64,000 nt of DNA from Firmicutes bacterium ADurb.Bin193 (GTDB lineage: Bacteria > Bacillota > Clostridia > Monoglobales > Firm-18). The notes beneath the pieces were generated by a model. It made no database searches, was not told the DNA's origin, and worked only from the letters and a program-made list of their open reading frames with translations. The stretch covers positions 1-64,000 of the forward strand of contig MWCQ01000013.1 of assembly GCA_002070105.1 (NCBI GenBank). The letters run 5' to 3'. Below are positions 1,635 to 25,402 of the stretch, piece after piece. Within the stretch, counting starts at the first letter, position 1. Each line of letters begins with the position of its first letter. Position numbers and translations under genes: made by a program.

Positions 1635-1802
1635 TTACATCAGATTACACGAATACTTGTAGTCAGCACCAAGCTGAGTACAAATATGTTTTTCAGCATT
1701 TTCAGCTTCCACTTTTGTTATAAGCCCTTTTTCGAGTAGCTTTTTCAGCTGGTAATTTATAAAGACATAAGATATATTGCTTTTTACTTTTTCTTCACAC
1801 AT
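1635..1802 (-). CDS. Small SHOCT-like protein upstream of the recombinase
   Basis: A 55-aa protein starting MCEEKVKSNIS. The start at 1802 is chosen because a strong AGGAGG sits about eight bases before it; a longer reading upstream would run through a hairpin. The centre (YQLKKLLEKGLITKVEAENAE) has the short amphipathic helix pattern of SHOCT domains, where a leading helix and a G-L-I-T turn precede a second helix. Such small proteins commonly stand next to large serine recombinases in Clostridial elements, and a recombination or regulatory accessory role is an inference. It follows the structured non-coding stretch and precedes the recombinase in the same direction, so the two are probably co-transcribed. 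The family call rests on a short motif and is moderate. Confidence 0.6.
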   Translation of the reverse strand: MCEEKVKSNISYVFINYQLKKLLEKGLITKVEAENAEKHICTQLGADYKYSCNLM

Positions 1803-1805
1803 ATT

Positions 1806-1845
1806 TTTATCCTCCTGAATATTGCTTGGAGGCAAAGCAGTAAGC
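1806..1845 (-). other. Hairpin just before the ribosome site of the SHOCT-like gene
   Basis: On the minus strand GCTCGGAGGC pairs with GCCTCCAAGC (nine of ten positions) across a loop of about seventeen bases. The hairpin ends directly before the AGGAGG of the next gene and has no U-run, so it is not a simple terminator. It could influence translation of the downstream gene. Confidence 0.5.
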
Positions 1846-1862
1846 ACTCCGCCTCCGAGCAA

Positions 1863-2270
1863 TCTATAAATATTTCATTTCATCATTCAGCTGTATTATT
1901 CCTGTCCCCAGCGTCACCAGGCAATTCATAAACTGTTTTGGAAACATCACAGGACTCTCACCTCTCCGTCAGCGACCGAGCCGCACTTTGGGACTTAACC
2001 TCAACTATGCGGGAGTATCATTATCACTGTTGCTGTTATTGCAGAGTAGCCATCCAAAGCTACCTTACAGCCGAATATTTATCGCTCATTCCCTTAGATG
2101 CTATCTGTGTTTACCCTGAAATACTTAGGGCAGGGAGTCTTGGCGTATTCGCTGCTGTGCTTGCCGTTTCCGGCACAACAGATAAAGTGTTTATAAATCG
2201 GGTATTCAGTTGTCAAAGATCAAATGAGGATAATTTTCTCCCTCACTATTCTATAAAGGGAGTTTTTTTA
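1863..2270. ncRNA. Structured non-coding stretch between sigma-like and SHOCT-like genes (orientation uncertain)
   Basis: About 400 bases without a convincing gene but with several exact inverted pairs: TCCTGT (1900-1905) with ACAGGA (1949-1954), CCGCA (1981-1985) with TGCGG (2008-2012), GTAGC (2046-2050) with GCTAC (2059-2063), and CTCCCT (2238-2243) with AGGGAG (2257-2262). On the plus strand the last pair is followed by TTTTTTT, an intrinsic terminator pointing against all genes of the window. On the minus strand the same hairpin is followed by TGATCTTTGACAACTGAATA (2203-2222), which resembles the boxA antitermination site of Firmicute rRNA leaders. So it is either a plus-strand RNA ending near 2270 or a long minus-strand leader of the SHOCT-recombinase unit. 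I do not recognise a named RNA family. Confidence 0.45.
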
Positions 2271-2304: not shown

Positions 2305-2721
2305 TTATTTTTTTATTCCCATAATTTTACGAAGTTTCTTAAGGATTTTTTCAAGTCTGTAGCTTATTGTACTTTGTGCAATACCGGTTATCTGTGACAC
2401 TTCATCCTGGCTTTTATTTTGATCATACAACAATGTTAAAAGCAACTTATCACCTGCCGACAATGTTTCACGAGCCCTTTGCATGTTTTCAATCAGAATC
2501 TTCTGCACGACTTCATCCTCCAGATTAACACTTGAATCGGCAACAATTTCACCAAAACTACGCTCTCCGATAGTTAGTGCATCCAATGATAAAACCGTTA
2601 CCTCATCCTCATATTCTTTAAGCCTTTTTGAATGATCATACTCGCTTTTGAATTTTTGATATGTTTCCTTTGATACTTCATAGTATTTCTTTTCAATAAT
2701 CCAATAATATTTTTTTGACAC
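2305..2721 (-). CDS. Sigma-70 region-4-like regulator
   Basis: A small sigma-factor-like DNA-binding protein (138 aa from the GTG at 2721, starting MSKKYYWIIEKK). The C-terminal third is a clear region-4 helix-turn-helix: LSAGDKLLLTLLYDQNKSQ, then a recognition helix (GIAQSTISYRLEKILKKLRK). There is no region 2, so it cannot act as a complete sigma factor by itself. Such short sigma-like proteins are typical regulators in Clostridial conjugative elements. An ATG lies 15 bases earlier (2736), but its own GGAGG fits the GTG better (spacing eight bases). A perfect 13-base inverted repeat stands immediately before this ribosome site. The next gene in the same direction is the SHOCT-like gene, beyond the structured RNA stretch. 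Confidence 0.75.
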   Translation of the reverse strand: MSKKYYWIIEKKYYEVSKETYQKFKSEYDHSKRLKEYEDEVTVLSLDALTIGERSFGEIVADSSVNLEDEVVQKILIENMQRARETLSAGDKLLLTLLYDQNKSQDEVSQITGIAQSTISYRLEKILKKLRKIMGIKK

Positions 2722-2735
2722 TTCAATATCCTCCA

Positions 2736-2768
2736 TTCTGAATTTTTGTAAAATAAAAAATTCAGAAT
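2736..2768 (-). promoter_or_regulatory. Perfect inverted repeat abutting the sigma-like gene's ribosome site
   Basis: ATTCTGAATTTTT is followed seven bases later by its exact reverse complement AAAAATTCAGAAT. On the minus strand the second arm ends directly before GGAGG and includes the alternative ATG at 2736. It could be an operator for a dimeric repressor or an RNA hairpin controlling translation. Confidence 0.6.
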
Positions 2769-2816
2769 GGTTATGGATACCTTGCAATGTAGCATTTCCA
2801 TTGTTTTATAAGCAAT

Positions 2817-3223: not shown

Positions 3224-3565
3224 TTATATGCTTGATTTTAGTTCCTCTTTCTGAGCTAAATAAAAATCTATGTATCCAAGAATATGCTTTATATCAAACT
3301 CGTTCATTTCAGCTAATCGAGCATTAATTTCAGCAGAATATATATCTTTTTCTGTCTTGTCCTTGTTTTGAATAAGAAATTCTAACGAAACATTAAGTGC
3401 TTCCGTCATTGATACAAGCGTATTCAAATGCGGAAGCACTCGTCCAACTTCTATCCTTGATAATGCCTTATCTGTTATATCAATCATTTCAGCAAATTCA
3501 ACTTGTGTAAGATTTTTTTGTTCCCTTAACTTTCTTAATTTTAATCCAAATTCTATTTTGTCCAT
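3224..3565 (-). CDS. XRE-family transcriptional regulator
   Basis: A 113-aa DNA-binding protein of the Cro/CI class. The helix-turn-helix spans about residues 8-62: LRKLREQKNLTQVEFAEMI, then DKALSRIEVGRVLPHLNTL, the usual pattern of recognition helix followed by the E-x-G-R-x-x-P turn. The remaining 50 residues (AEMNEFDIKHILGYIDFYL) look like a helical dimerisation or sensing tail. It sits alone in its unit, followed by a possible 38-aa frame and two tandem terminators, so it likely controls the recombination region or its own promoter. Such regulators often keep ICE excision genes silent. The target is not visible from the sequence. Confidence 0.85.
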   Translation of the reverse strand: MDKIEFGLKLRKLREQKNLTQVEFAEMIDITDKALSRIEVGRVLPHLNTLVSMTEALNVSLEFLIQNKDKTEKDIYSAEINARLAEMNEFDIKHILGYIDFYLAQKEELKSSI

Positions 3566-12980: not shown

Positions 12981-15900
12981 TTACTTTTTAATTCTAAACT
13001 CTTTCCAATTTGTGGCGACATCCATTTCAACACCGTTTTGAAGCGATTTGAAATGCTCCATTCCGCAATGAATTTTAAGCTGTTCCGGGGTTCTCAGTCC
13101 AAATAAGTCTGTTGTGCCCTTTGTTTCAAGAATGAAATACATTTTCTTTTCACCGTTTTTATCAAGGTATACCGCCCAATCAGGGTTATATGTTCCGATA
13201 GGTGTATCAATCTTAAATCTATCAGGAATCTTAAAGAACATTTTTACATCAGGGTCGTCATCCAAAGCCTTTGCAAACGGTTTTTCTATTGTAGAACTGT
13301 CATAAATTATATGATCATACACACTCGAACTTACAGCAACAGCATTTTTATCAAGATTTGCAACAAGCTCGCTTGAATCAAAAATTTCCTGTGCATAATA
13401 CTCCTGACCGTCCAGCTTTACATAGCTGATTCCGTCAATTGCGAGTGCATGCCTGTTATGTTTGATTATATCAAGGCATTTTTCCATAAACGCTTGCGGA
13501 TTATTTAAAAAGTCTGCTGCACGACCGCTTTCTGTAATGATTCTTGCGACAGTTGACTTTTTAATCAATGTTTCTTCGCTGATTATTCCGAGAATGTACG
13601 GCAATCTATCATATGTTTCCTCTAAATCTGTTGTTCTTATTTCTCGCTCAGTATATGTAACTCCGGGATTTTGTATATTAATATCCGCCGTTTGTGTTAC
13701 AAGCCTTGCCTTTGGAATGGCAGGCATATTTTTAAGCTCTGCTACACATTTTCCGATTAATGAATCTGTATCAATAGTAACACGGTATGTGGTTTTCTGC
13801 TTGATTTTGTTCCAAAGCTCCATAAACTCCGGGGAAATCATAACTTGCTTTTTCAGACGCACAATAACCTCTTTTGATGCATCTCTGACAGGCACTTTGT
13901 TATCTGCTTTAAGTAAAACATTCTCCAGGCGCTCTCTTGCAGCCTCAAATTTCTTTGGTAAGTCAAGCGTACCTGTAAGAAGCGCATTTTTCATAGTATC
14001 TTTCATCTTACCGTTTTTTTCAGCATAGCCCTTATCTTTAAAATGTTCTATTAATTCAGCTGCATCATCATAGGTAACTTCCTTTTCAACAGTAACAGTT
14101 TCAGTATATGATTTTCCTATAATATCGTCAGCCTTGACAGTTGTATTTTCTATTATAGCTTTTTCAATGGATTCTTTTGCCGTTTCAAGCTGCTTGGGTA
14201 ACTCAATTGATTTCTCTACAACAGCTTTTTTTGCTGTTTCCGTCGGTTTTCCTGTTTCATCGACAAAGCCATGGCTTGACATATAGCTCATAATAAGCTG
14301 TGCGTCGGATTCGTCAACTTGTTTTTCTGTCACGGTCTTTTCTTCATATGTCATACCGCTGAACAGACCAATCTGCAATACTCCGAATTTAACGCCTGTT
14401 TCATTTTCAATTTCTTTTTGCAGTGTTTCTGCAAATTCAGCAAAGCTTTCGTTTGCCATTACATGAAGAATGTTTATATTCTTATCTTCAATTCTTTCGC
14501 CCGTTTGGTCAACACAAAGTCTTAAACCTCTACCAACCTTTTGTCTGCAGGTAAAGGTATTCTTTTGGTCGATAAGGGTACAAATCTGAAATACATTCGG
14601 ATTATCCCAACCCTCTTTAAGAGCAGAGTGAGAGAAGATAAAGCGAAGCGGACAATCGTAGCTGAGTAACCATTCCTTGTCTTTCATAATGGTGTTGTAT
14701 GTATCATAGTCAGCGGTTGTATCGCCTTTGGTATCTTTGAATACACCTTTTTTATCCTGAGAGAAGTAACCGTTATGAATGGTGGTTACATCTGCCGGGA
14801 ACTGTTCTTTTAATGACTCATATTTCGGTGAATTGATAAGCTCTGTGTAGCATCTTTCAAACATCTGTGCATAGATGCCTTTTTCACCGTCAGGAGTTCT
14901 GTATTTTTTAACTTCGTCAATGAAGAACAGAGAGAGCACCTTAATTCCTTTTTCTCTGAAACGGAGTTCTTTATCAAGATGTGCTTTGATAGTTCTCTTA
15001 ATCTGTGCTTCTTTGATAATGTTTTCGTCAATGCTTCCGATAGATTTACCGAGCATTACAACCTCTGTGTTTGAAAATTCAATACATTCAAAACCGGGAG
15101 TACAATCTATGCCGGCAATAGTATATCCGTCATAAAGTTCTCTTTCGCCTGAAACGAGGTATAAATCATCATTCGGTTTAACTGTAATTGTTTTTCTTGA
15201 TACAGTTCCGTCTTTAGCTTCAACATCAAGCTCAATTTTAGCCTTAAAACCGTTTTCATTTGATACGGAGAGTAATTTCACATAAGGCTTGTTAAAATCG
15301 TTTGCAACGGCATTTGAGGACACACAAATCTGCTTTACCAATCCCATCTGATAAGCATCAACGGGAGTAAGACGGTATAAGAGGTTGATTTTTTCTCTGT
15401 GTGTTGCAGAATATCTTAATACGCAAGAAGGATGAAGGGATGCGATAGCTTCCTTTGCCTTGTCGGTATTGTCAACGCTCTGCGGTTCGTCAATGATAAC
15501 AATAGGATTGGTGTCCTGGATATATCTCATTGCGGTTTCGCCATTGAGTTTATCCTGAGCCTGATTGATGATATTTTCAGCTTTCTTAAAAGCATCAATA
15601 TTGATAATCATAATCTCTATGTTATTGCTTGTTGCAAACTGTCTTACATCAGAGAGCTTGCTTGAGTTATAGATAAAGTATCTGCACGGAGTATTGTCAT
15701 AGCTATTCTGAAAATGCTCTCCGGTAATCTGCAGAGATTTATATACACCTTCACGGATAGCAACAGAGGGAACTACGATAATGAACTTTGTAAAACCATA
15801 TCTTTTATTAAGTTCAAAGATAGTCTTTGTGTAAACATAGGTTTTACCCGTACCCGTTTCCATTTCAACACAGAAAGAACGGTGTGCAGCTCCTTCATCA

Positions 15901-16145
15901 TCGACAATATCATTTGTCATCGGAAGATTGTTTCTTCTCTGTATTTCGTGCATATTTGCAATCAAAGCATCATTGGATATGCTGATAACATTCCCAATAC
16001 CAAGCTCATTCTGATTGATTAAGTCAATCGCTTCTATATTTGTTATTTCAAAAGTAGAACGCAACTTTTCCTGACCTTTGAATAAATCCGCAACTGAATC
16101 TACTGCATCAGTCTGAAATTGTTGGTTTTTGAATTTTAGTTTCAT
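12981..16145 (-). CDS. res: Type III restriction enzyme Res subunit
   Basis: A 1054-aa SF2 helicase-nuclease that translocates on DNA and cuts unmodified sites together with Mod. Walker A is METGTGKTYVYTK (residues 95-107), the DEAD-like motif is IVIIDEPQSVDN, motif III is YSATHREK, and the second helicase lobe carries SHSALKEGWDNPNVFQ and RQKVGRGLRLCVDQ. The C-terminal nuclease has the PD-(D/E)xK signature NPDWAV, then FILETKG, about residues 990-1015. Two internal lysine/glutamate-rich repeats (VVEKSIELPKQLETA..., then LLTGTLDLPKKFEAARERLE) resemble each other. All catalytic parts are intact. It starts six bases after the PIN-like gene, which separates it from mod, an uncommon order. Confidence 0.95.
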   Translation of the reverse strand: MKLKFKNQQFQTDAVDSVADLFKGQEKLRSTFEITNIEAIDLINQNELGIGNVISISNDALIANMHEIQRRNNLPMTNDIVDDEGAAHRSFCVEMETGTGKTYVYTKTIFELNKRYGFTKFIIVVPSVAIREGVYKSLQITGEHFQNSYDNTPCRYFIYNSSKLSDVRQFATSNNIEIMIINIDAFKKAENIINQAQDKLNGETAMRYIQDTNPIVIIDEPQSVDNTDKAKEAIASLHPSCVLRYSATHREKINLLYRLTPVDAYQMGLVKQICVSSNAVANDFNKPYVKLLSVSNENGFKAKIELDVEAKDGTVSRKTITVKPNDDLYLVSGERELYDGYTIAGIDCTPGFECIEFSNTEVVMLGKSIGSIDENIIKEAQIKRTIKAHLDKELRFREKGIKVLSLFFIDEVKKYRTPDGEKGIYAQMFERCYTELINSPKYESLKEQFPADVTTIHNGYFSQDKKGVFKDTKGDTTADYDTYNTIMKDKEWLLSYDCPLRFIFSHSALKEGWDNPNVFQICTLIDQKNTFTCRQKVGRGLRLCVDQTGERIEDKNINILHVMANESFAEFAETLQKEIENETGVKFGVLQIGLFSGMTYEEKTVTEKQVDESDAQLIMSYMSSHGFVDETGKPTETAKKAVVEKSIELPKQLETAKESIEKAIIENTTVKADDIIGKSYTETVTVEKEVTYDDAAELIEHFKDKGYAEKNGKMKDTMKNALLTGTLDLPKKFEAARERLENVLLKADNKVPVRDASKEVIVRLKKQVMISPEFMELWNKIKQKTTYRVTIDTDSLIGKCVAELKNMPAIPKARLVTQTADINIQNPGVTYTEREIRTTDLEETYDRLPYILGIISEETLIKKSTVARIITESGRAADFLNNPQAFMEKCLDIIKHNRHALAIDGISYVKLDGQEYYAQEIFDSSELVANLDKNAVAVSSSVYDHIIYDSSTIEKPFAKALDDDPDVKMFFKIPDRFKIDTPIGTYNPDWAVYLDKNGEKKMYFILETKGTTDLFGLRTPEQLKIHCGMEHFKSLQNGVEMDVATNWKEFRIKK

Positions 16146-16151
16146 TTATTC

Positions 16152-16718
16152 TCACCTCAATACTTGCACTTCTCTTATAAAATCGTCATAGTGTATTGCA
16201 CGATTTTGAAAGTATTTATTTACAATTCTAATCACTCTTTTATCTGTTGAGATAAATGTGCATCCATTATATATAGCCGATTCTGCTATTACTGCATCAT
16301 TCAAATGTCGTGTGTTATCATTATATATTTCATAAAACATTTGAACTCGTGGCTCATTACTATCACTACTTTCAATAGCACGATATGTTCCATCCAAAAT
16401 AACAAGCCAAGCTTGACACGGATTTCCGTAACAAGAAACTCTTTTTACATTTAATAACTCAAATATTTCTTCTATTCTTGCTGCATTTTCAGGTTGTTCC
16501 CATTTTACATTGTAGGTTCTTTTTCTGTCAGGAACTCCGTGTATTTCTCTGCTTTGTAATTCAGTTACATAAAACTCATAACCTTGTTTTGTTGCTTCTA
16601 TTAGCAAATTTACATCATCAGCACTATTTGATAGCCTTTTATCAAACACACATGAATCAAGTAAGTAATTGTGTTGGTTTTCTATATTTGGGGTATAACA
16701 TTTATCAAGAATTCCCAT
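16152..16718 (-). CDS. PIN-like nuclease domain protein inside the type III operon
   Basis: A 188-aa protein read as a PIN domain. The acidic residues fall in the right order: D21 in NYLLDSCVFDKR, E53 or E58 in VTELQSREIHG, D141 in RHLNDAVIAESAIYNGC and D159 in FISTDKRV. These would bind metal for RNA or single-strand cleavage. It lies nine bases after mod and six before res, so it is translated as part of the restriction operon. No antitoxin partner is next to it, so a VapC-type toxin role is less likely; a nuclease arm of the defence system or an RNA sensor is possible. Family assignment is by motif spacing only. Confidence 0.7.
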   Translation of the reverse strand: MGILDKCYTPNIENQHNYLLDSCVFDKRLSNSADDVNLLIEATKQGYEFYVTELQSREIHGVPDRKRTYNVKWEQPENAARIEEIFELLNVKRVSCYGNPCQAWLVILDGTYRAIESSDSNEPRVQMFYEIYNDNTRHLNDAVIAESAIYNGCTFISTDKRVIRIVNKYFQNRAIHYDDFIREVQVLR

Positions 16719-16727
16719 ACATTATCC

Positions 16728-18644
16728 TCACACTAATTTAAGCTCAATAGCTCTGTCTTTCAAAATATAATGTGCATTTGATAATGCAGAATCATCCGCA
16801 AAGCCTGCTTCTGCACAAATAATCTTTGCCGGAGCATACTGTGCCATAGCCTCAATATCTTCCGCAGTAATCTTATCAGCAAGGCAAATCATAAGTATAA
16901 AATCGCCTACGATATATGCAATCTTATCATTGATTTCCATATACTGAACTTCCACATCAAGAGGAATACCCATTTTAAGCATAACTTCATAGACAACATC
17001 CATATCTGTTCTGTCATCTTTAACTGTGTCAATCATTGCATTAAGTCTTTCATAGAACAAATCTATCTGCTTGTCCTGAATAGGTGTTCCATCCCAAGTC
17101 TTTAAGTTTGAAGTATCAAGCTTGAATACCTTAAAACCAACATCGAGAGGTGATTTTTCTTCGTCACCCAATTCCGTCTGAGTATTTTCTTCAATAATTT
17201 TCTTACCCGTTCTTCTAAGCCTTTCCTCTGCAATTTTACAAAGATTTGTGTAACCTTCTTTATATGCTTCAGAATCTTCTTCGCATAGTTCAGGTATTTG
17301 TACACAGATAAAGCGTCTGTTTCCACCATCTTCAACATTTAATTGCATTACTGCGTGAGCGAGGGTGGCTGAACCGGAGAAAAAGTCCAAAATAATACTT
17401 TCTTCATTGGGATTGGTTGCATATTCAATCAAGTCTTTTATCATAGCAACAGGTTTTGGATTGCTGAATTCTACTCGTCCCATTATAGCTCTATATTCTT
17501 TAGTTGCGACATCTGTTGAGTATGCGGCTCCTGCTAATACCGATTTTGGTCTTACTCGTCTTGCACCTTCGCCATCTTCAAGATAATCTTTCTCGTATAT
17601 ATTGTATTTGTTTCCAACTTGCTTACCGAACAAATACTCTATATTTTTAGCAGCAGTTTCTTTACCCCAACGCCATCTACCATCATCACCGTTTGACTTT
17701 ACAGGAAGTGCCTCAACAGAATAGAATTCACTTTGCTCTAAAGATACCTTTCCGCTTTGTGGATTAACATAGAAAGGATAATACATATTAGGTCTTTCTT
17801 TTCTTGTATCAGGACCACCTCTTTTTCTTAATTCAAGAAGGCGATATTTACCATTATCATCAATTTCTTTATATTCGCTAACTACCGAATCATCTAAAGA
17901 CAAACCGTGTTCTTCAAATTCCATTGATTTTACATACATAAGCAATCTTTCGTTTGCTCTTGCAATATATTTTTTATCGTTTCTGCCTTTCAAATTATTG
18001 ACAACACTCATATCTGCGACAAAGTTTTCTTCTCCAAATACTTCATCACAAAGCTTTTTCAAATTATGAGCTTCATTATCATCAATACTTATAAATATAA
18101 CCCCATCTTCTCTAAGAAGATTTGCTGCTAATCTTAACCTTGGATACATCATATTAAGCCAATTTGTATGAAATCTACCCATAGTTTCAGCATTTGATTT
18201 TGTGGTCTGCTGAGTAATTTCCTTGTAACGAGCCATAGGATCGGCGAAGTCATCCTCATAAACAAAATCGCTTCCGGTATTGTAAGGAGGATCTATATAA
18301 ATCATTTTGATTTTGTTGTAGTATGCGGTCTGAAGGAGCTTTAATACTTCAAGATTATCGCCCTCGATATAAAGGTTCTTTGTTTCATCGAAATTAACAC
18401 TTTCAGCCTTGCAAGGGCGAAGTGTTCCCGTTGAACGCTTTTGAGCAAGCTTCAATGACTCAATTTTACCTTTCCATTCAAACTTATACTTTTCAAAGTC
18501 GTTGTCTATGTATTCGCCGCATAATGATAACAGCTTGTCTATATCAAGCGTCCCTTCACTAAAACATTCCGGGAATACTGCCTTTAGCTTTTCCATATTC
18601 GCATTTTCTAAATTCATTGAAAGACCATCTAATTTATTAGTCAT
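16728..18644 (-). CDS. mod: Type III DNA methyltransferase Mod subunit
   Basis: A 638-aa N6-adenine methyltransferase that provides sequence recognition and modification for the type III system. The catalytic motif IYIDPPYNTGSDFVYEDD lies at about residues 115-132 and the AdoMet motif ILDFFSGSATLAHAVMQLN near 420-440, the beta-class order (catalytic motif first). The central region between them is the target recognition domain. C-terminal residues contact Res in the family. It starts 33 bases after the SIR2 stop. The gene looks complete, so the host DNA should carry its methylation mark. Its base composition (about 38% GC in a hand-counted line) is higher than in the pAgo-SIR2 genes upstream. 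Confidence 0.95.
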   Translation of the reverse strand: MTNKLDGLSMNLENANMEKLKAVFPECFSEGTLDIDKLLSLCGEYIDNDFEKYKFEWKGKIESLKLAQKRSTGTLRPCKAESVNFDETKNLYIEGDNLEVLKLLQTAYYNKIKMIYIDPPYNTGSDFVYEDDFADPMARYKEITQQTTKSNAETMGRFHTNWLNMMYPRLRLAANLLREDGVIFISIDDNEAHNLKKLCDEVFGEENFVADMSVVNNLKGRNDKKYIARANERLLMYVKSMEFEEHGLSLDDSVVSEYKEIDDNGKYRLLELRKRGGPDTRKERPNMYYPFYVNPQSGKVSLEQSEFYSVEALPVKSNGDDGRWRWGKETAAKNIEYLFGKQVGNKYNIYEKDYLEDGEGARRVRPKSVLAGAAYSTDVATKEYRAIMGRVEFSNPKPVAMIKDLIEYATNPNEESIILDFFSGSATLAHAVMQLNVEDGGNRRFICVQIPELCEEDSEAYKEGYTNLCKIAEERLRRTGKKIIEENTQTELGDEEKSPLDVGFKVFKLDTSNLKTWDGTPIQDKQIDLFYERLNAMIDTVKDDRTDMDVVYEVMLKMGIPLDVEVQYMEINDKIAYIVGDFILMICLADKITAEDIEAMAQYAPAKIICAEAGFADDSALSNAHYILKDRAIELKLV

Positions 18645-18677
18645 TATCAGTTTCCTCCATCTTTTCTACAATTTATA

Positions 18678-19721
18678 TTAAAAAGGCAATTCATCTTGCG
18701 GTAACTTACTTCCAACATAATCTAATGTCAACTTTTCGTTTAAAAAATCCTTTGCGCCAATATTTTCAATAATAATCCTACTATCAGCATTATTTATGCT
18801 AAACTTATCTCGTATTCTTTTAATTTCATTTTCTTCATCGGTTGTCGGTTCGACAATAAGAAGCTTTTTTGTTTCATCACTTACTATTGCCTGTCTAACT
18901 AAGTCATTTATATGGTTATCGTTAAAACTATACCCAATTGTAATAATAATTTTGGATAGAAGTGCATATTTTCTAAACTCATATAAATAAAACAAATACG
19001 GATCTATTGCTTGCAACTTGACATCTGTTCCAAAAATTATATCAGGTTTTATCTTTTGTTTAGAAGATGTTTTTAATTGTCCATCTTTTCTTTGCCAATT
19101 TATTGAACCATGTAATTTATATAAATATATTGCCGTTTCTTCATCATTTTCGCTTTGATTAAATCTATTTCCATCCCATGCTTTATCATCGCAAAACCCA
19201 GTTTCAACTTTGCAATCAACATTTTCTTCCAAACACAAATCATAATTCAGAGAGAATATTCTTATTCCATAGGTTAGTTCTTTTTGGAATTTTCCAAAGT
19301 TTTTATAATATGTGGCAGATGAGTATGAATCAAGTGTAACCCAATTTGGAAGTTCTTCTTCTATAATATGTATTAATCCGTCTATATTAGAAAAGTTATC
19401 ACCCGCATATTCATATAATTCATTTGTATAACCACTAATGAACGGATAGTAAATAGTTTTTTTGTAACTGGCTATTGTATGCAGCGTTACCATAAGTGAC
19501 TCAATATTAAAATCTTGATCTCGTTCAAACATTTTATTTCCGTATTCCATGGTGTATTTAACATATCGATATAGGGTGTAAATATCTTCATGTTTTGTCT
19601 TTAATAATTCCTCTAATTTAGCTATCATATCCTTAGAGATGGGGACAGTGGCATCATAACTACATCCAGCGCCAAGTAGAAAAATAACATCTTTATCACC
19701 AACACTTATTTTTTCATTCAT
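18678..19721 (-). CDS. SIR2-family NAD-consuming protein, partner of the Argonaute
   Basis: A 347-aa SIR2-fold protein. From the start MNEKISVGDKDV it shows the nucleotide loop FLLGAGCSYDA (about 14-24), the catalytic-region SLNYDLCLEE, YKLHGSINW with the conserved His, and ITIGYSFNDNHIND. The ATG at 19721 has an exact AGGAGG seven bases before it, and this overlaps the pAgo stop codon; a longer start lies inside pAgo and is not favoured. There is no APAZ region, unlike the fused SIR2-APAZ subunit of SPARSA. SIR2 proteins linked to pAgos deplete NAD(P) on target recognition and kill the infected cell; this is family knowledge and an inference here. Confidence 0.92.
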   Translation of the reverse strand: MNEKISVGDKDVIFLLGAGCSYDATVPISKDMIAKLEELLKTKHEDIYTLYRYVKYTMEYGNKMFERDQDFNIESLMVTLHTIASYKKTIYYPFISGYTNELYEYAGDNFSNIDGLIHIIEEELPNWVTLDSYSSATYYKNFGKFQKELTYGIRIFSLNYDLCLEENVDCKVETGFCDDKAWDGNRFNQSENDEETAIYLYKLHGSINWQRKDGQLKTSSKQKIKPDIIFGTDVKLQAIDPYLFYLYEFRKYALLSKIIITIGYSFNDNHINDLVRQAIVSDETKKLLIVEPTTDEENEIKRIRDKFSINNADSRIIIENIGAKDFLNEKLTLDYVGSKLPQDELPF

Positions 19722-19732
19722 GAGTGTGCCTC

Positions 19733-21646
19733 CTATATAAACCAAACTTTATCCATTGCTGTATCTCCAATATCTAAGCTAATTCCATATTGCACAAATT
19801 TTCCTGCAAATCTCGCAATTAATTCAGGGTATAATGTTGTTACCGGCTCATGTTTTGCGTTAAATCCACGCCAATTTGCACCGGATAGATTAACAATGTC
19901 TTGCAAATATGATTTAATATCATCATCGTTAAGATTACCCGAATCCATAAATTGAATATGAACTGGATTTGTTATATTCTGTGAAGCAATTACTTGCGTT
20001 TTGCCCTGTTGTATTCCTTCAAACCAAACTAAAAATTCCCTTTTTCCCAATGGAATGCACGTACCCGCTAATGGAATACAACTATTATAATGAGAATAGC
20101 CAAAAAATCTATTAATCACATTTATTTTTATAAAAACAAATTCTATTTGGTCATGAGCCTGTTTAACAGAATAAATGCTATCTTTAATACATCTAATCTC
20201 GTACTTATTCATTTTAAATGGAATATGAATTACACATTTTTTGATATTTGTCGTCATTTCATTATTTAAGTGTAATTTAATTTGCTCAGATAATTGAGCA
20301 ATATAAGTATCTCTATCATTTGATTCTCCGAGAATATTAAGACGTCTATATATACCGCTCGAATCAAAGCAAAGTGAATATGCAAAGTATTTTGTGATAT
20401 TGCCATCGTTATCTTTTATATGGGCACTGGATATTCCAAAAATTACGCAATCATTATTACAAGGTTTTACTTTCCATGGTTGTCCACCTAATTTTACAAA
20501 CAATTGTAATCCAATACCGGAAATTGACCACTTGAACCCATCTTTTTTTTGTGCCTGTTCAATCGTAACAGCCTGTACAGCTAAACCATTTTTCAAAAAA
20601 TAACTTTTTATTAAGTAATATGGAGAATAGTCATTGCTGGCATCAAAATCTTTTGCTATTCCTGCAAATATACCAACCATTTGTTTATCTGAGTTACGTT
20701 TTATTATTTCATTCAATTCCGTTTCAATAATGTCCAAGTTCTTTTTGGAAAAATCGTCTACAATGATTGATTTTATATTTTCATTAGCAAATCTCACACC
20801 AAACATTTTTTCCATACCAGAAAATGTTGAATACAATTCTCCTCGTAGTGCTTTTACTAATTGTCGAGAAGTGTTAATTTTGCTTTTTTCAAAAACGAAT
20901 ATAAACAAAGGTTCTTTACTTATGGAGACAAACGGTTTTAATTCCTTGATACCTTGAAATTGTACATTATGTTCTCCATTTTGAAATATATATTTTTTTT
21001 CATTAAGAATAAATGGTTTTATTTCTGATAATGCTTTTGTTATATCAATAGTATTTTCTCCAAGGTCTATAGGAAATATCTTAGTCATTATTTCTTTAAC
21101 GAAAGATGAAATATACTTATATTTGTCTGCATAAAAATTTTTATTTTTATTTCCATATTGATCAATTGATAAGCTTAATATTTTTTCTTCACGGCTTTTC
21201 TCAAATCCTTTATTAGGTTGAAATTTATAGTCAATAATAAAACCAAAACTATTATTGTAATCCAAATAATATGGCTCCAACCTTATTAAACAATTTCCCG
21301 CCTTATGTTTTGATATTACAAATGAAATATTAGGTATGAAGTGAGTCCCTACAAAGTATTCTGATGAAACACATCCAGTTCTCATTTTTTTAATTAACTC
21401 GTTTATCAGCCATTTTTTTGTTAAATTAATATTATCATATGAGGAACAAAGAAAACTCAAACAATCTTCTTTTTCCTCAAAGCTGACAGCATAATCATCA
21501 CTATCACTGTGATCAATGGTGGGAAGCCTGTATTCGTAAAATCCATCATCTTTTGAAGAAGCATCATATGCTTTTCTATATACAGTAAAACCAAATTCCG
21601 AATTAGATAATTCAACATAATTTAGCATTATATTATCTTCGTTCAT
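19733..21646 (-). CDS. Prokaryotic Argonaute (PIWI protein), catalytically degenerate
   Basis: A 637-aa Argonaute. The MID region (about 245-375) carries the 5'-end binding pattern YYLIKSYFLKNGLAVQAV (343-360), and the PIWI domain (378-637) starts GLQLFVKLGGQPWKV and ends with NWRGFNAKHEPVTTLYPEL, both hallmark positions. The first catalytic Asp of the DEDX set, expected after VIFGI, is Ser406 (GISSAHI), and the third Asp region (CVIHIPFKMNKYEI) lacks an acid, so slicing is not expected. About 245 residues precede MID, more than in short pAgos but too few for a full N-PAZ, which fits a PAZ-reduced long-B-like form. It overlaps the DUF4238 stop by one base and leads directly into SIR2. It would use a guide to sense foreign nucleic acid and trigger the SIR2 effector. 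Confidence 0.88.
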   Translation of the reverse strand: MNEDNIMLNYVELSNSEFGFTVYRKAYDASSKDDGFYEYRLPTIDHSDSDDYAVSFEEKEDCLSFLCSSYDNINLTKKWLINELIKKMRTGCVSSEYFVGTHFIPNISFVISKHKAGNCLIRLEPYYLDYNNSFGFIIDYKFQPNKGFEKSREEKILSLSIDQYGNKNKNFYADKYKYISSFVKEIMTKIFPIDLGENTIDITKALSEIKPFILNEKKYIFQNGEHNVQFQGIKELKPFVSISKEPLFIFVFEKSKINTSRQLVKALRGELYSTFSGMEKMFGVRFANENIKSIIVDDFSKKNLDIIETELNEIIKRNSDKQMVGIFAGIAKDFDASNDYSPYYLIKSYFLKNGLAVQAVTIEQAQKKDGFKWSISGIGLQLFVKLGGQPWKVKPCNNDCVIFGISSAHIKDNDGNITKYFAYSLCFDSSGIYRRLNILGESNDRDTYIAQLSEQIKLHLNNEMTTNIKKCVIHIPFKMNKYEIRCIKDSIYSVKQAHDQIEFVFIKINVINRFFGYSHYNSCIPLAGTCIPLGKREFLVWFEGIQQGKTQVIASQNITNPVHIQFMDSGNLNDDDIKSYLQDIVNLSGANWRGFNAKHEPVTTLYPELIARFAGKFVQYGISLDIGDTAMDKVWFI

Positions 21647-22590
21647 TACATTTCGCCTCCATAATAATTAATTGCTCCATTTGTATATATTTGTCTGTAA
21701 GACTGTTTGAATTGCAGTAAATTCTGATTGGTTATAAATCTATCTTCATCTATTTGAATACATATATCCTCATAAGATTCTGAGATTTTACCCCATACTG
21801 TATTTTTATGATATAATGCAACCAAATATTTAGGTGTTAACGGCATGCTAATTATTGTTGTTATTTTATCTAATCCATTTCCTGATATTCCACATTTTCC
21901 GGTTTGAAAATCATACATTGTTACAGGTGTATCACTTGTAACAAAGGGATTTACTTTGCATTGCTTATTCTCATATATAACCCAAGCACGATTTTTTATA
22001 AGTACCTTAGAAAAACTATTTATTCTTTCTTCATCTGTTGTTATTAATAAGTGAAATGAATTGGATACATCTTTACTGTATTCAAATGAATCAAGAACAT
22101 CGTTATACTCTTCCTTTTTCTGTGTGCTTGTTATTTTCCTTATATGTTTACGAGTTTCTGAAATGATTTTCTCACACACCGGTAACCCCAAATCAAATGT
22201 ACTTTGTCTTGCACTGGGTGTTCTCAACAACTGCACTACTATCAATTTTGCTAATTCATATTTTATTTTCGGAGTCAAAACAGTCGAGTTATTGTTAGTA
22301 AGCAAACAAGTTGAAACTATATTGTTAATGATACGAGGCATCTTTTCTTCTATAATACGACTATATTTACTTTCGTAATATAATGGATCATTCATTGGAG
22401 GTTTAGCACAAAATCTTGAGTTTTCTACCTTGTTATAATTATTCTTCTGTGCTACATCAATTATATTTGCAATATATTGTTTACAACTTGATTTATCAAA
22501 AACATGTAACTTATATTGTGAATTTACTTTAATTGCAAAAAAGCGCAGATATGCTTGTGGTACATAATGATGTTTTTTCGCTACACTCAT
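21646..22590 (-). CDS. DUF4238 protein in the pAgo-SIR2 operon
   Basis: A 314-aa protein beginning with the DUF4238 signature KKHHYVPQAYLRFFA and carrying the second conserved region NPFVTSDTPVTMYD near residue 215-230. The biochemical function of DUF4238 is not established to my knowledge; the HH-x-x-P opening and conserved SDxP suggest metal or phosphate chemistry, but this is speculation. The stop codon overlaps the pAgo start (TAATG), and the gene begins three bases after the helicase stop, so it is tightly coupled on both sides. This makes a functional place in the pAgo system likely. Its base composition is A+T-rich like pAgo and SIR2. Confidence 0.8.
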   Translation of the reverse strand: MSVAKKHHYVPQAYLRFFAIKVNSQYKLHVFDKSSCKQYIANIIDVAQKNNYNKVENSRFCAKPPMNDPLYYESKYSRIIEEKMPRIINNIVSTCLLTNNNSTVLTPKIKYELAKLIVVQLLRTPSARQSTFDLGLPVCEKIISETRKHIRKITSTQKKEEYNDVLDSFEYSKDVSNSFHLLITTDEERINSFSKVLIKNRAWVIYENKQCKVNPFVTSDTPVTMYDFQTGKCGISGNGLDKITTIISMPLTPKYLVALYHKNTVWGKISESYEDICIQIDEDRFITNQNLLQFKQSYRQIYTNGAINYYGGEM

Positions 22591-22593
22591 ATC

Positions 22594-25194
22594 TTATTCT
22601 CCTACATTTATAACAAACTGTCTTTCAGCATTTGCCGATATTTTTTCTCTACCCAAAAATTCGTTAATCTTATTCTCTAAATCAACATCAATCTGCATTT
22701 CATCAAAAAATAAGCCTTCTTTTTTCTTCATTATTTCATTTTTCAAAGCAGATATTTTTCTCTCAATCATTAACAATTTTAGTCTATCACTCCTGACTGC
22801 TTCGAATTCTTTGTTAAGTTCCTTCATCCGAAGCTCAAAATCATCAAGTGCATGATTCAAATTATTCTTTTTATTAGTCACAGCAAGCTTCATTCTTTCG
22901 ACTTCTTCCTGCTGCAACGGTGTAAGATTTTCTTCCTCTTTTGCGATATGTTCATCAAGGTTTAAAAGCAAGTCCATTTTATGAGGCTTACTGTCTCGCA
23001 ACCAATAAGTTTTTCTGTTGCCTTCCTCTGAATATGAACATACCTTACTGTTCATTATCAGTTCACATTCATTATGCGTAAGAATTTTGTTATCATCAGT
23101 TACGCCTATTAAAACAGGATATTCTTTTATAAGCTTTATACCGGCATAAATTTTTATCAAATAAAGTGCAATAGTACAGTTTATGTCATTTGCTTGCATA
23201 GTCCCAAAATCAGCACATCCCAAGTTAAAAATAATACCCTTTGCCAGCGGTGACAATAGAGATATTTTTTTAAACTCTTTAAGGCTTGTATATGGCTTAT
23301 TACCTGTATTTGTCGGGTAATAAAACAGCATTGGAAGCTTTTCATAATTTGTTGCTGTTACCGTGTGCTTTTCATCATCTATTTTATATCGGCAATCATT
23401 TTGAGTGTTATTATATTCTTCAAAATAGTATTTAACAAGCTCCCAAAGCTCGCCGTTAATTTCTTTCGATTTTTGCTCTACATACTGCGGTGATATTTTA
23501 ATTTTATCAGATATTTCCTTTGTAAAGGTAGTAAACAAAATACTTTCAGCACTTTCAACAAGCTGTCTGTTATCTATTTCATTTTCATTTAATGTTTTCT
23601 GATAATCTTTCTCAACCTGAATTTTAGTCCTAACAGTAAGTTCCTTTAATGCCTTATCAAAATTATCCGTAAAACCGCCAATAACACTATCCGAAACACC
23701 AAAAACTCCGTCAGACAAAATATGTCTTTTGGAAACAAGCTCAAGCTTTCTAACGTCTGCAAAATTTTCTTTGTTAATAAACGAGACCACAATACAATCA
23801 TTTTGTTGATTAATACGGTGAATACGGTCTATTCTCTGTTCCATCTTCAAGGTATTATAAAGCAAGTCATAATTTATAATTAAAGAGGCTTCCTCTAAAT
23901 TATAACCCTTTGCACCGTTGTCGGTTGAAATAAGTATTTCGCCGTCTTCCTTAAACTGTTTTATAACCGTATAATCAGTAGCGCTCTGACCGTTATATAT
24001 CAAGATACGGTATTTATCCTTTAATAGTCCAAGGAGATATTTTTGTGTTTCCACACTTTCTGTAAATATAACAGCCTTACCGTTAGCACCTGTTTTTTTC
24101 AAGATTGGAAACAGCTTGTCTAACACCATAAGTAAAAGCTTTGCTTTTTCGTCCTCTGTAATTGCTTCCGCTGTTTCAAGCATATGGCGAAATTCAGCTA
24201 ATTCTGTATCTGCACCCTCTGTTTCTTCAAGTCTCTTAATAATATTCTTAAAGCTTGCCTTTGCAGCCGCCGTTGAAGATGATAAAAGACCTAAAAGCAT
24301 CAAAGCCAAGTCGTACTGTTCCATTTTAGAAAAAGCTATTTTTTGAGGCTTATTCACATAAGCAAATAGAAGATTATATACTTCCTTTTCTTCTTTTGAA
24401 GCCTCATATTCAAGCGTAATATGCCGCCTTTCGGGAATTTTTGCGTATTGCTTAGCCTGGCTTCTTAAAGTTCTGAAACAATACTTGCTTACCTTTTCGG
24501 CAAGCTCCGGATAATTTTCCGGCTTTCGTAAATACCTTTTCATATATGTATCAGGATCGGGCAATAATTCTTCATCAATAAAATATATAAGTCCGTACAA
24601 GTCCATTATATTTTTCTCTATCGGCGTACCTGTGAGAAGAATTTTGAAAGTGTTTTCAGCAAACTTTTTTAATATTTTTGCTTGTTTTCCTCCTGCCGCT
24701 GCTCTAAATGCATTTTCTTCTTGATATACAGATGAAAGGGCATTTGCCTCCTCAAAAACAATAATGTCCCAATTTATTCTATCTGCTTTCTCTATATTCT
24801 GTGTTAAGTAATCATAGGTTGTCAGTACTATTCCGTCATAATCAAAACCACCATCATTCATTGCAATGCAAAACGGCAAACTGTATTTTTCTTCTATCAT
24901 TTCCGCCCATTGCATAAGCAAATCAGGGTTTGGTATTGCAATCAGTAATTTTGTTTTTCCTTCATACCAGCCTTGCGACAAAATAAGCATTGCCTCATGA
25001 GATTTACCCATTCCTGCTTCATCGCAAAGAATGACTCCTTTTTGATACGGATTACGCATAGCAAACAATGCAGCCGCAACCTGATATGGATAAACATTTA
25101 TATTTCCTTCCGAAAAAACAGGCAACAGCCTATCCTCATTGTGCAAACTATTCAATTTTAGTGCAGTATAATATGCGTGAAACGGTGTTTGCAT
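22594..25194 (-). CDS. SNF2-type helicase/ATPase of the defence operon
   Basis: An 866-aa SF2 ATPase from the ATG at 25194 (MQTPFHAYY), preceded by GAGGA; the longer upstream reading overlaps the repressor gene. Motif I is ILCDEAGMGKS (55-65), motif II IIVFEEANAL (144-153), motif III ILLTGTPIEKN (185-195), and the second lobe has VIFTESVETQKYL, ISTDNGAKGYNLEEA and QRIDRIHRINQ. Motif II reads FEEA instead of DEAH. The C-terminus has a long charged coiled coil (about 720-830). SNF2 helicases next to Mod and Res genes occur in a type III-like restriction arrangement in gut Firmicutes, as I recall it. It starts four bases after the repressor stop and three before DUF4238. Confidence 0.92.
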   Translation of the reverse strand: MQTPFHAYYTALKLNSLHNEDRLLPVFSEGNINVYPYQVAAALFAMRNPYQKGVILCDEAGMGKSHEAMLILSQGWYEGKTKLLIAIPNPDLLMQWAEMIEEKYSLPFCIAMNDGGFDYDGIVLTTYDYLTQNIEKADRINWDIIVFEEANALSSVYQEENAFRAAAGGKQAKILKKFAENTFKILLTGTPIEKNIMDLYGLIYFIDEELLPDPDTYMKRYLRKPENYPELAEKVSKYCFRTLRSQAKQYAKIPERRHITLEYEASKEEKEVYNLLFAYVNKPQKIAFSKMEQYDLALMLLGLLSSSTAAAKASFKNIIKRLEETEGADTELAEFRHMLETAEAITEDEKAKLLLMVLDKLFPILKKTGANGKAVIFTESVETQKYLLGLLKDKYRILIYNGQSATDYTVIKQFKEDGEILISTDNGAKGYNLEEASLIINYDLLYNTLKMEQRIDRIHRINQQNDCIVVSFINKENFADVRKLELVSKRHILSDGVFGVSDSVIGGFTDNFDKALKELTVRTKIQVEKDYQKTLNENEIDNRQLVESAESILFTTFTKEISDKIKISPQYVEQKSKEINGELWELVKYYFEEYNNTQNDCRYKIDDEKHTVTATNYEKLPMLFYYPTNTGNKPYTSLKEFKKISLLSPLAKGIIFNLGCADFGTMQANDINCTIALYLIKIYAGIKLIKEYPVLIGVTDDNKILTHNECELIMNSKVCSYSEEGNRKTYWLRDSKPHKMDLLLNLDEHIAKEEENLTPLQQEEVERMKLAVTNKKNNLNHALDDFELRMKELNKEFEAVRSDRLKLLMIERKISALKNEIMKKKEGLFFDEMQIDVDLENKINEFLGREKISANAERQFVINVGE

Positions 25195-25198
25195 ATAT

Positions 25199-25402
25199 TT
25201 ATCCTCTACTAATCTCCATAACATCACCAATATCGCATTTAAGTACATTACAAATCTTTATAAGCACTGAAAGAGCTACAATTTCATTATTATTAAGTTT
25301 TGTAAGTGTTGCAGAAGAAAAGCCTGCTGTCTTTCTTAAATCAGCTTTTGACATATCTTTTTGTGCAAGTAAAATCCATAGTTTTTTATAACTGACGGGC
25401 AT
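25199..25402 (-). CDS. Small XRE-family repressor heading the defence operon
   Basis: A 67-aa Cro/CI-type DNA-binding protein from the ATG at 25402 (MPVSYKKLW), chosen because TGGAGG stands seven to eight bases upstream; a longer reading extends through the promoter. The helix-turn-helix is SKADLRKTAGFSSATLTKL, followed by NNNEIVALSVLIKICNVLKC, the usual pattern of small XRE proteins such as YozG. It is the first gene after a strong promoter whose -10 box lies in a palindrome, so autorepression of the whole helicase-pAgo-SIR2-Mod-PIN-Res operon is likely. Its stop lies four bases before the helicase start. Confidence 0.88.
   Translation of the reverse strand: MPVSYKKLWILLAQKDMSKADLRKTAGFSSATLTKLNNNEIVALSVLIKICNVLKCDIGDVMEISRG

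Follow-up and report, generated by a model that had tools for sequence, protein, structure and literature searches.

A pemK-type leader RNA before an ICE recombination operon is probably a canT-like antiterminator

The interval between orf8 and xis of Tn916 is canT, which Wirachman and Grossman (2024, PMC11658703) showed to be a cis-acting, orientation-specific and processive antiterminator, most likely an RNA. In that work canT needs no other Tn916 gene and overrides terminators of Tn916 as well as heterologous ones, a flipped fragment is inactive, and canT mutants excise normally but neither express the transfer genes nor conjugate. In this system the element's other end carries an insulating terminator, T1. 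The paper states that its authors took the sequence and structure analysis of canT no further, and the words pemK, boxA and Rfam do not occur in it. In rRNA operons, boxA precedes the leader-trailer helix (PMC10250234), and boxA-type complexes are reported to protect CRISPR arrays from Rho (Stringer 2020). EAR, put and conAn2 are RNAs that render polymerase terminator-resistant in cis, as is proposed here for the window RNA. To our knowledge, put RNA has no boxA.

In the window, the whole 64,000-nt stretch of DNA analysed, the functional feature is a leader RNA of about 300 nt, located on the minus strand of an integrative conjugative element (ICE), with a sigma-like gene on its 5' side and, on its 3' side, a small ORF followed by a serine recombinase (Table 1). 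Its limits lie slightly inside the 1863-2270 stretch outlined by an earlier reading made without database searches (the sequence-only reading). An Rfam comparison, which that reading had suggested as a check, yields pemK RNA (RF02913) on the minus strand as the only family above its cut-off in the 64-kb window; no antitermination RNA model such as EAR reaches its own. The match covers the RF02913 model end to end, positions 1-61, whereas the plus strand has no Rfam match above cut-off. Because the match is on the minus strand, the RNA has the orientation of the genes. The folding energy lies below that of shuffled sequences on both strands, with similar z values (-3.1 for minus, -3.4 for plus), and therefore picks no strand; the minus strand is fixed by the Rfam match, the polarity of boxA and the Tn916 experiments.

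The gene order around the RNA is that of Tn916, with sigma-like gene, RNA, small ORF and recombinase following one another. Like canT, the window RNA sits between sigma-like/HTH genes and excision and integration genes, and the window has an XRE-type repressor-like gene of the kind found next to orf7 in Tn916. Pfam bears out the sigma-like assignment of the sequence-only reading, while its SHOCT-like label for the small ORF finds no Pfam match. Unlike canT, the window copy precedes this small ORF and a serine recombinase, has a longer P3 arm and shares no blastn-level identity with canT. The element also encodes a T4SS coupling protein, a MobL relaxase and a VirB4-like ATPase.

Table 1. Features of the leader RNA and of the surrounding element, in window coordinates
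Feature	Position	Strand	Evidence or remark
Large serine recombinase, cut by contig end	1-1542	-	Pfam Resolvase, Recombinase, Zn_ribbon_recom
Small ORF in xis position	1635-1802	-	no Pfam match
Ribosome-binding site CAGGAGG of small ORF	1811-1817	-
13-bp hairpin between RNA and small-ORF ribosome-binding site	1821-1864	-	without U-run
Full canT/pemK-type leader RNA, boxA to P0 3' strand, ~300 nt	about 1921-2223	-	Rfam match, conserved flanks, covarying helices
P0 3' strand GUUUAUGAAUUG	1922-1933	-	covariation
pemK RNA domain RF02913, opens with invariant AUAAUGAUAC	1947-2024	-	60.1 bits, gathering 34.8
P1 3' strand GCAACAG, immediately before AUAAUGAUAC	2027-2033	-	covariation
P4 hairpin GUAGC-UUUGGAUG-GCUAC, conserved loop type	2046-2063	-	by eye
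P2 3' strand UAUUCGGCUG	2068-2077	-	covariation
GAGCGAUAA, opposite strand of CGCCANGAC loop	2079-2087	-	conserved
P3, UCCCU with AGGGA	2132-2136 with 2090-2094	-	covariation
Internal-loop strand CGCCAAGAC (consensus CGCCANGAC)	2137-2145	-	conserved
P2 5' strand CAGC-AG-CGAAUA	2146-2157	-	covariation
P1 5' strand CUGUUGU	2175-2181	-	covariation
P0 5' strand CGAUUUAUAAAC, 12-bp closing helix	2189-2200	-	covariation
rRNA-type boxA-like element TCTTTGACAACTGAATA (17-mer)	2203-2219	-	conserved across loci
Hairpin CTCCCTcactattctataaAGGGAG (2238-2262) and T7 (2263-2269)	2238-2269	+	plus-strand terminator
Sigma-70 region-4-like protein, Tn916 orf7 position	2305-2787	-	Pfam PF04545, 1.5e-7
XRE-type repressor-like gene	3224-3565	-	Pfam HTH_3, 5.8e-15
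Type III restriction	12981-16145	-	defence-like cargo
Methylase	16728-18644	-	defence-like cargo
SIR2 protein	18678-19745	-	defence-like cargo, adjoins Piwi-domain protein
Piwi-domain protein, perhaps short Argonaute	19733-21646	-	defence-like cargo
DUF4238	21646-22590	-	defence-like cargo
SNF2 helicase	22594-25248	-	defence-like cargo

Comparison of the loci around about 90 pemK hits, fetched and oriented, reveals that pemK RNA is the 3' domain of a much larger conserved RNA, of which the Rfam model covers no more than 61 nt. Ahead of the pemK domain, the loci begin with a boxA-like element, after which come CGCCANGAC, then GAGCGAUAA, then a hairpin whose loop is of the UUGG/UUGC type, and lastly GCGAUGAC. 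After the rRNA-type boxA comes a long-range helix, P0, which encloses P1-P3; the 5' strand of P0 starts right after boxA and its 3' strand lies just past the pemK domain. P2 and P3 flank an internal loop formed by CGCCANGAC and a GAGCG strand, and CGCCANGAC occurs with at most one mismatch in 64 of 93 loci, compared with 106 of 4650 shuffles.

The sequence-only reading had reported several exact stems and had named a lack of covariation in related elements as what would count against it. Those stems are confirmed, and P0, P1, P2 and P3 covary across loci. The arms of P0 are unrelated between loci yet paired within each, as in CGAUAACCUAAAU/GUUUAGGUUAUUG, UUUAUCCGGC/GCCGGAUAAA and AUUCAUCAGAU/GUCUGAUGAGU, and the P0 and P1 arms have no sequence common between loci for MAFFT to align. 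We scored contiguous stems with a free search in narrow windows, because noise hid any covariation when the two ends were folded as duplexes without restriction (-19.6 kcal/mol in cis, -18.2 kcal/mol in trans). The mean P0 score is 20.9 within a locus but 13.9 when arms are swapped between clusters, and the corresponding values are 18.9 and 13.3 for P1, 13.5 and 10.5 for P2, and 12.6 and 9.3 for P3 (permutation p about 5e-5 each; for P0, 0 of 20,000 permutations reached the observed mean). Reversed or shuffled control arms of equal composition score 13.6-14.7 for P0 and P1, and the locus's own 95th percentile is exceeded in 23 of 32 loci for P0 and in 20 of 32 for P1.

The boxA-like TGATCTTTGACAACTGAATA that the sequence-only reading saw on the minus strand, downstream of the hairpin in minus-strand order, is present beyond chance. 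The search pattern TCTTTGAAAACTGAATA occurs with at most one mismatch a single time in the genome, at this site; with up to three mismatches, 39 of 91 related loci have it in the corresponding position, as against 2 of 1820 shuffles. The consensus over 32 sequence clusters is GNWCYTTGANAAYTGAATA. A G two bases upstream of boxA, at 2221 in the window, is conserved in 30 of the 32 clusters and, because it stands outside the search pattern, supports boxA independently. Furthermore, a related element is found in the 16S leaders of the window's own genome, as it is in the majority of 11 further host genomes, and in a by-eye comparison of these 12 genomes the boxA sequence matches the host's rRNA type. 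In the rRNA leader (PMC10250234), as in the window RNA, a boxA with the shared consensus precedes a long-range helix around a folded domain; the helix encloses rRNA there and non-rRNA in the window.

One of the hits is a Tn916-like locus, and through it the RNA was traced to pCF10, where it lies between orf8 and xis. On this Tn916-type element (L097, whose coordinates are used for mapping canT), RF02913 scores 55.0 bits and starts exactly at L097:4493. Specifically, the null mutation canT(S3), a replacement of ATA by TGC placed 283 nt past the orf8 stop (PMC11658703), maps to L097:4493-4495, where AUAAUGAUAC has its opening three bases. canT(delta162), described there as a deletion of nucleotides 229-390 after the orf8 stop, corresponds to L097:4439-4600 and takes out the P1 3' strand, P4 and the whole pemK domain. 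A 452-bp fragment, 126-577 nt after orf8, is reported in the same paper to suffice for antitermination in a reporter, and it contains P0 to P0'. Of the other fragments described there, one of 400 bp is active and S3-insensitive, and one of 291 nt that includes the S3 region is inactive. The window RNA and canT share the RF02913 core with the essential ATA of AUAAUGAUAC, boxA, the helices P0-P3, and the CGCCANGAC and GAGCG loop strands. The classical Tn5 insertion that abolishes conjugation, located in codon 41 of Tn916 'orf5', falls at L097:4565-4567, inside the pemK domain, when counted along the annotated orf5.

These comparisons argue that the window stretch is the leader RNA of an ICE recombination operon, in one family with Tn916 canT and pemK RNA, and that the folded RNA antiterminates polymerase; we put the probability of this reading at about 0.8. 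Because the window copy has no blastn-level match to the Tn916-type copies, we infer its function from covariance-model membership and shared architecture. Judged by these features, it is most likely a canT-type antiterminator permitting terminator readthrough after excision, and by analogy it would be active, letting polymerase proceed into the transfer genes once the element is circular. Polymerase leaving the sigma-like gene region would transcribe boxA and then the ~300-nt RNA, which would close through P0, displaying the conserved loop of CGCCANGAC and GAGCG together with the pemK domain and its AUAAUGAUAC. Once folded, this RNA would stay with polymerase, causing intrinsic terminators to be ignored, as proposed for Tn916. 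In the integrated element, readthrough would extend across the recombinase to the element's end, while after excision and circularisation polymerase would cross the joined ends into the transfer operon.

The match of boxA to the 16S leader boxA, together with the parallel to the rRNA boxA and leader-trailer helix, suggests that boxA may recruit NusB-S10, which would load or stabilise the complex. The resemblance of boxA to the rRNA-leader boxA of the same and related genomes, and the boxA-dependent protection of CRISPR arrays from Rho, would also fit a model in which boxA alone matters, with the rRNA-type NusB-S10 complex shielding an extended untranslated leader against Rho and the folded RNA as mere cargo. 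We know of no case in which boxA alone suppresses intrinsic terminators. Moreover, the canT null mutation falls within AUAAUGAUAC, some 145 nt beyond boxA, and antitermination is retained by the 452-bp fragment, which starts inside boxA at L097:4336, lacking its 5' part and retaining TTGAAAACTGAATA; we consider the boxA-alone model very unlikely and reject it. Because that fragment starts inside boxA, a complete boxA is dispensable in that reporter, which argues against a strict need for it. The idea in the sequence-only reading of a minus-strand boxA antitermination leader that could carry polymerase onward came close, the region being a homologue of canT. Its further proposal that the stretch controls ICE excision is contradicted by the normal excision of canT mutants, which lose transfer-gene expression and conjugation instead.

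The hairpin-T7 noticed on the plus strand is present as described and looks like a good terminator of that strand, and a plus-strand RNA antisense to the recombinase leader had been proposed. Such an RNA, ending at 2238-2269 and repressing that leader, is barely conceivable and is rejected here: the plus strand has no Rfam match; the conserved motifs, the boxA polarity and the covariation all describe the minus strand; and the flipped canT fragment is inactive. In addition, the relatives usually carry a sense-strand terminator between the sigma-like gene and boxA (56 of 92 loci, compared with 11 of 92 shuffled), often of the form ...CCCTCACT..AGTGAGGGGGTTTTT. The window hairpin stands at the equivalent place, reads AGTGAGGGAG on the sense strand and has a U-run on the other strand only; the likeliest reading makes it a degenerate or reversed version of the relatives' sense terminator rather than the end of an antisense RNA. 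Among loci L002-L096, strong upstream sense terminators are found, for example, in L010, L020, L024 and L030; transcription may pass them into the RNA by reading through or start from a hidden promoter.

Across loci, the RNA is repeatedly preceded by a sigma-like ORF and followed by a small ORF and then a recombinase. Sigma-70 region 4 is found in 44 of 68 upstream ORFs, and the 78 downstream large ORFs, mostly recombinases, include 38 with a resolvase domain, 21 with a phage-integrase (Phage_integrase) domain, 7 with a Tn916-integrase DNA-binding domain, 6 ParA-like and 1 PemK. The window RNA itself lies upstream of a serine recombinase operon instead of a pemK gene, and because most sampled members also precede other genes, the name pemK is not diagnostic.

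RF02913 is classed by Rfam as a 61-nt Cis-reg family, whereas the window RNA, whose 3' domain fits the whole model above the curated cut-off, is about 300 nt long, with a boxA and a closing helix. This classification could mean that the RNA is a riboswitch-like or protein-binding leader acting as a switch for the next gene only, with terminators between RNA and gene serving as attenuators. Consistent with such a switch, a terminator-like hairpin lies between RNA and next gene in 26 of 92 loci, a mild enrichment over 10 of 92 shuffled. However, most of the 92 loci, the window included, have no such terminator, the next genes are unrelated in kind (recombinases, PemK, ParA), and the Tn916 copy is processive and acts on heterologous terminators, leaving a next-gene switch unlikely. 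In L020, L024, L008 and L025, the interval between RNA and next gene holds long-looped hairpins followed by TATTTTTGTG, which are possible antiterminator targets or attenuators.

Of 391 genomes sampled from the class, 121 carry the pemK family, often in multiple copies, whereas all 14 control genomes lack it. Given this frequency, such ICEs may as a rule rely on RNA-driven readthrough to link excision with the expression of their transfer genes. More tentatively, pemK/canT RNAs could form one antiterminator class, very common among mobile elements of the bacterial class sampled, that imitates the rRNA leader, in which boxA loads the Nus complex and P0 and the AUAAUGAUAC domain convert it to intrinsic-terminator resistance, serving ICEs with tyrosine or serine recombinases as well as ParA- or PemK-headed operons. 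Through the family's joining with canT, an orphan Rfam family gains a likely function from an experimentally proven antiterminator, canT gains a covarying structure, and the roles of boxA and P0 become directly testable in Tn916. A literature search that covered few subscription papers and preprints found no later paper linking pemK to canT, and neither this link nor the complete covarying structure nor the boxA seems to have been described in the searchable literature.

At the level of blastn, the window stretch matches nothing in plasmid and phage collections, though Tn916-type copies are present there, and gives short chance-like pieces only in 51 genomes of the order; the sigma-like protein has just two weak relatives in the genome collection. 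Six viral or provirus contigs (IMG/VR, L134-L139) fit the strict pemK/canT core pattern, so the RNA may also exist in phages. In L006, L014, L015, L017, L018, L045 and L055, GGGGUGUUGAGAACAAAU follows the RNA, and some of these loci precede ParA-like genes and not recombinases; the RNAs trailed by GGGGUGUUGAGAACAAAU are possibly a plasmid or phage subfamily.

The window's own genome contains a second pemK-family copy, preceded on its 5' side by sigma-like/HTH-like ORFs, a 137-aa sigma-like one and then one of 81 aa, and followed on its 3' side by a 72-aa Xis-like ORF and then a tyrosine-integrase-like ORF, identities that come from gene order and a reading of the sequences without Pfam. The 13-bp hairpin at 1821-1864 could influence translation of the small ORF or be a recombination-related site. 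Farther along the window, defence-like cargo spans 12981-25248 on the minus strand.
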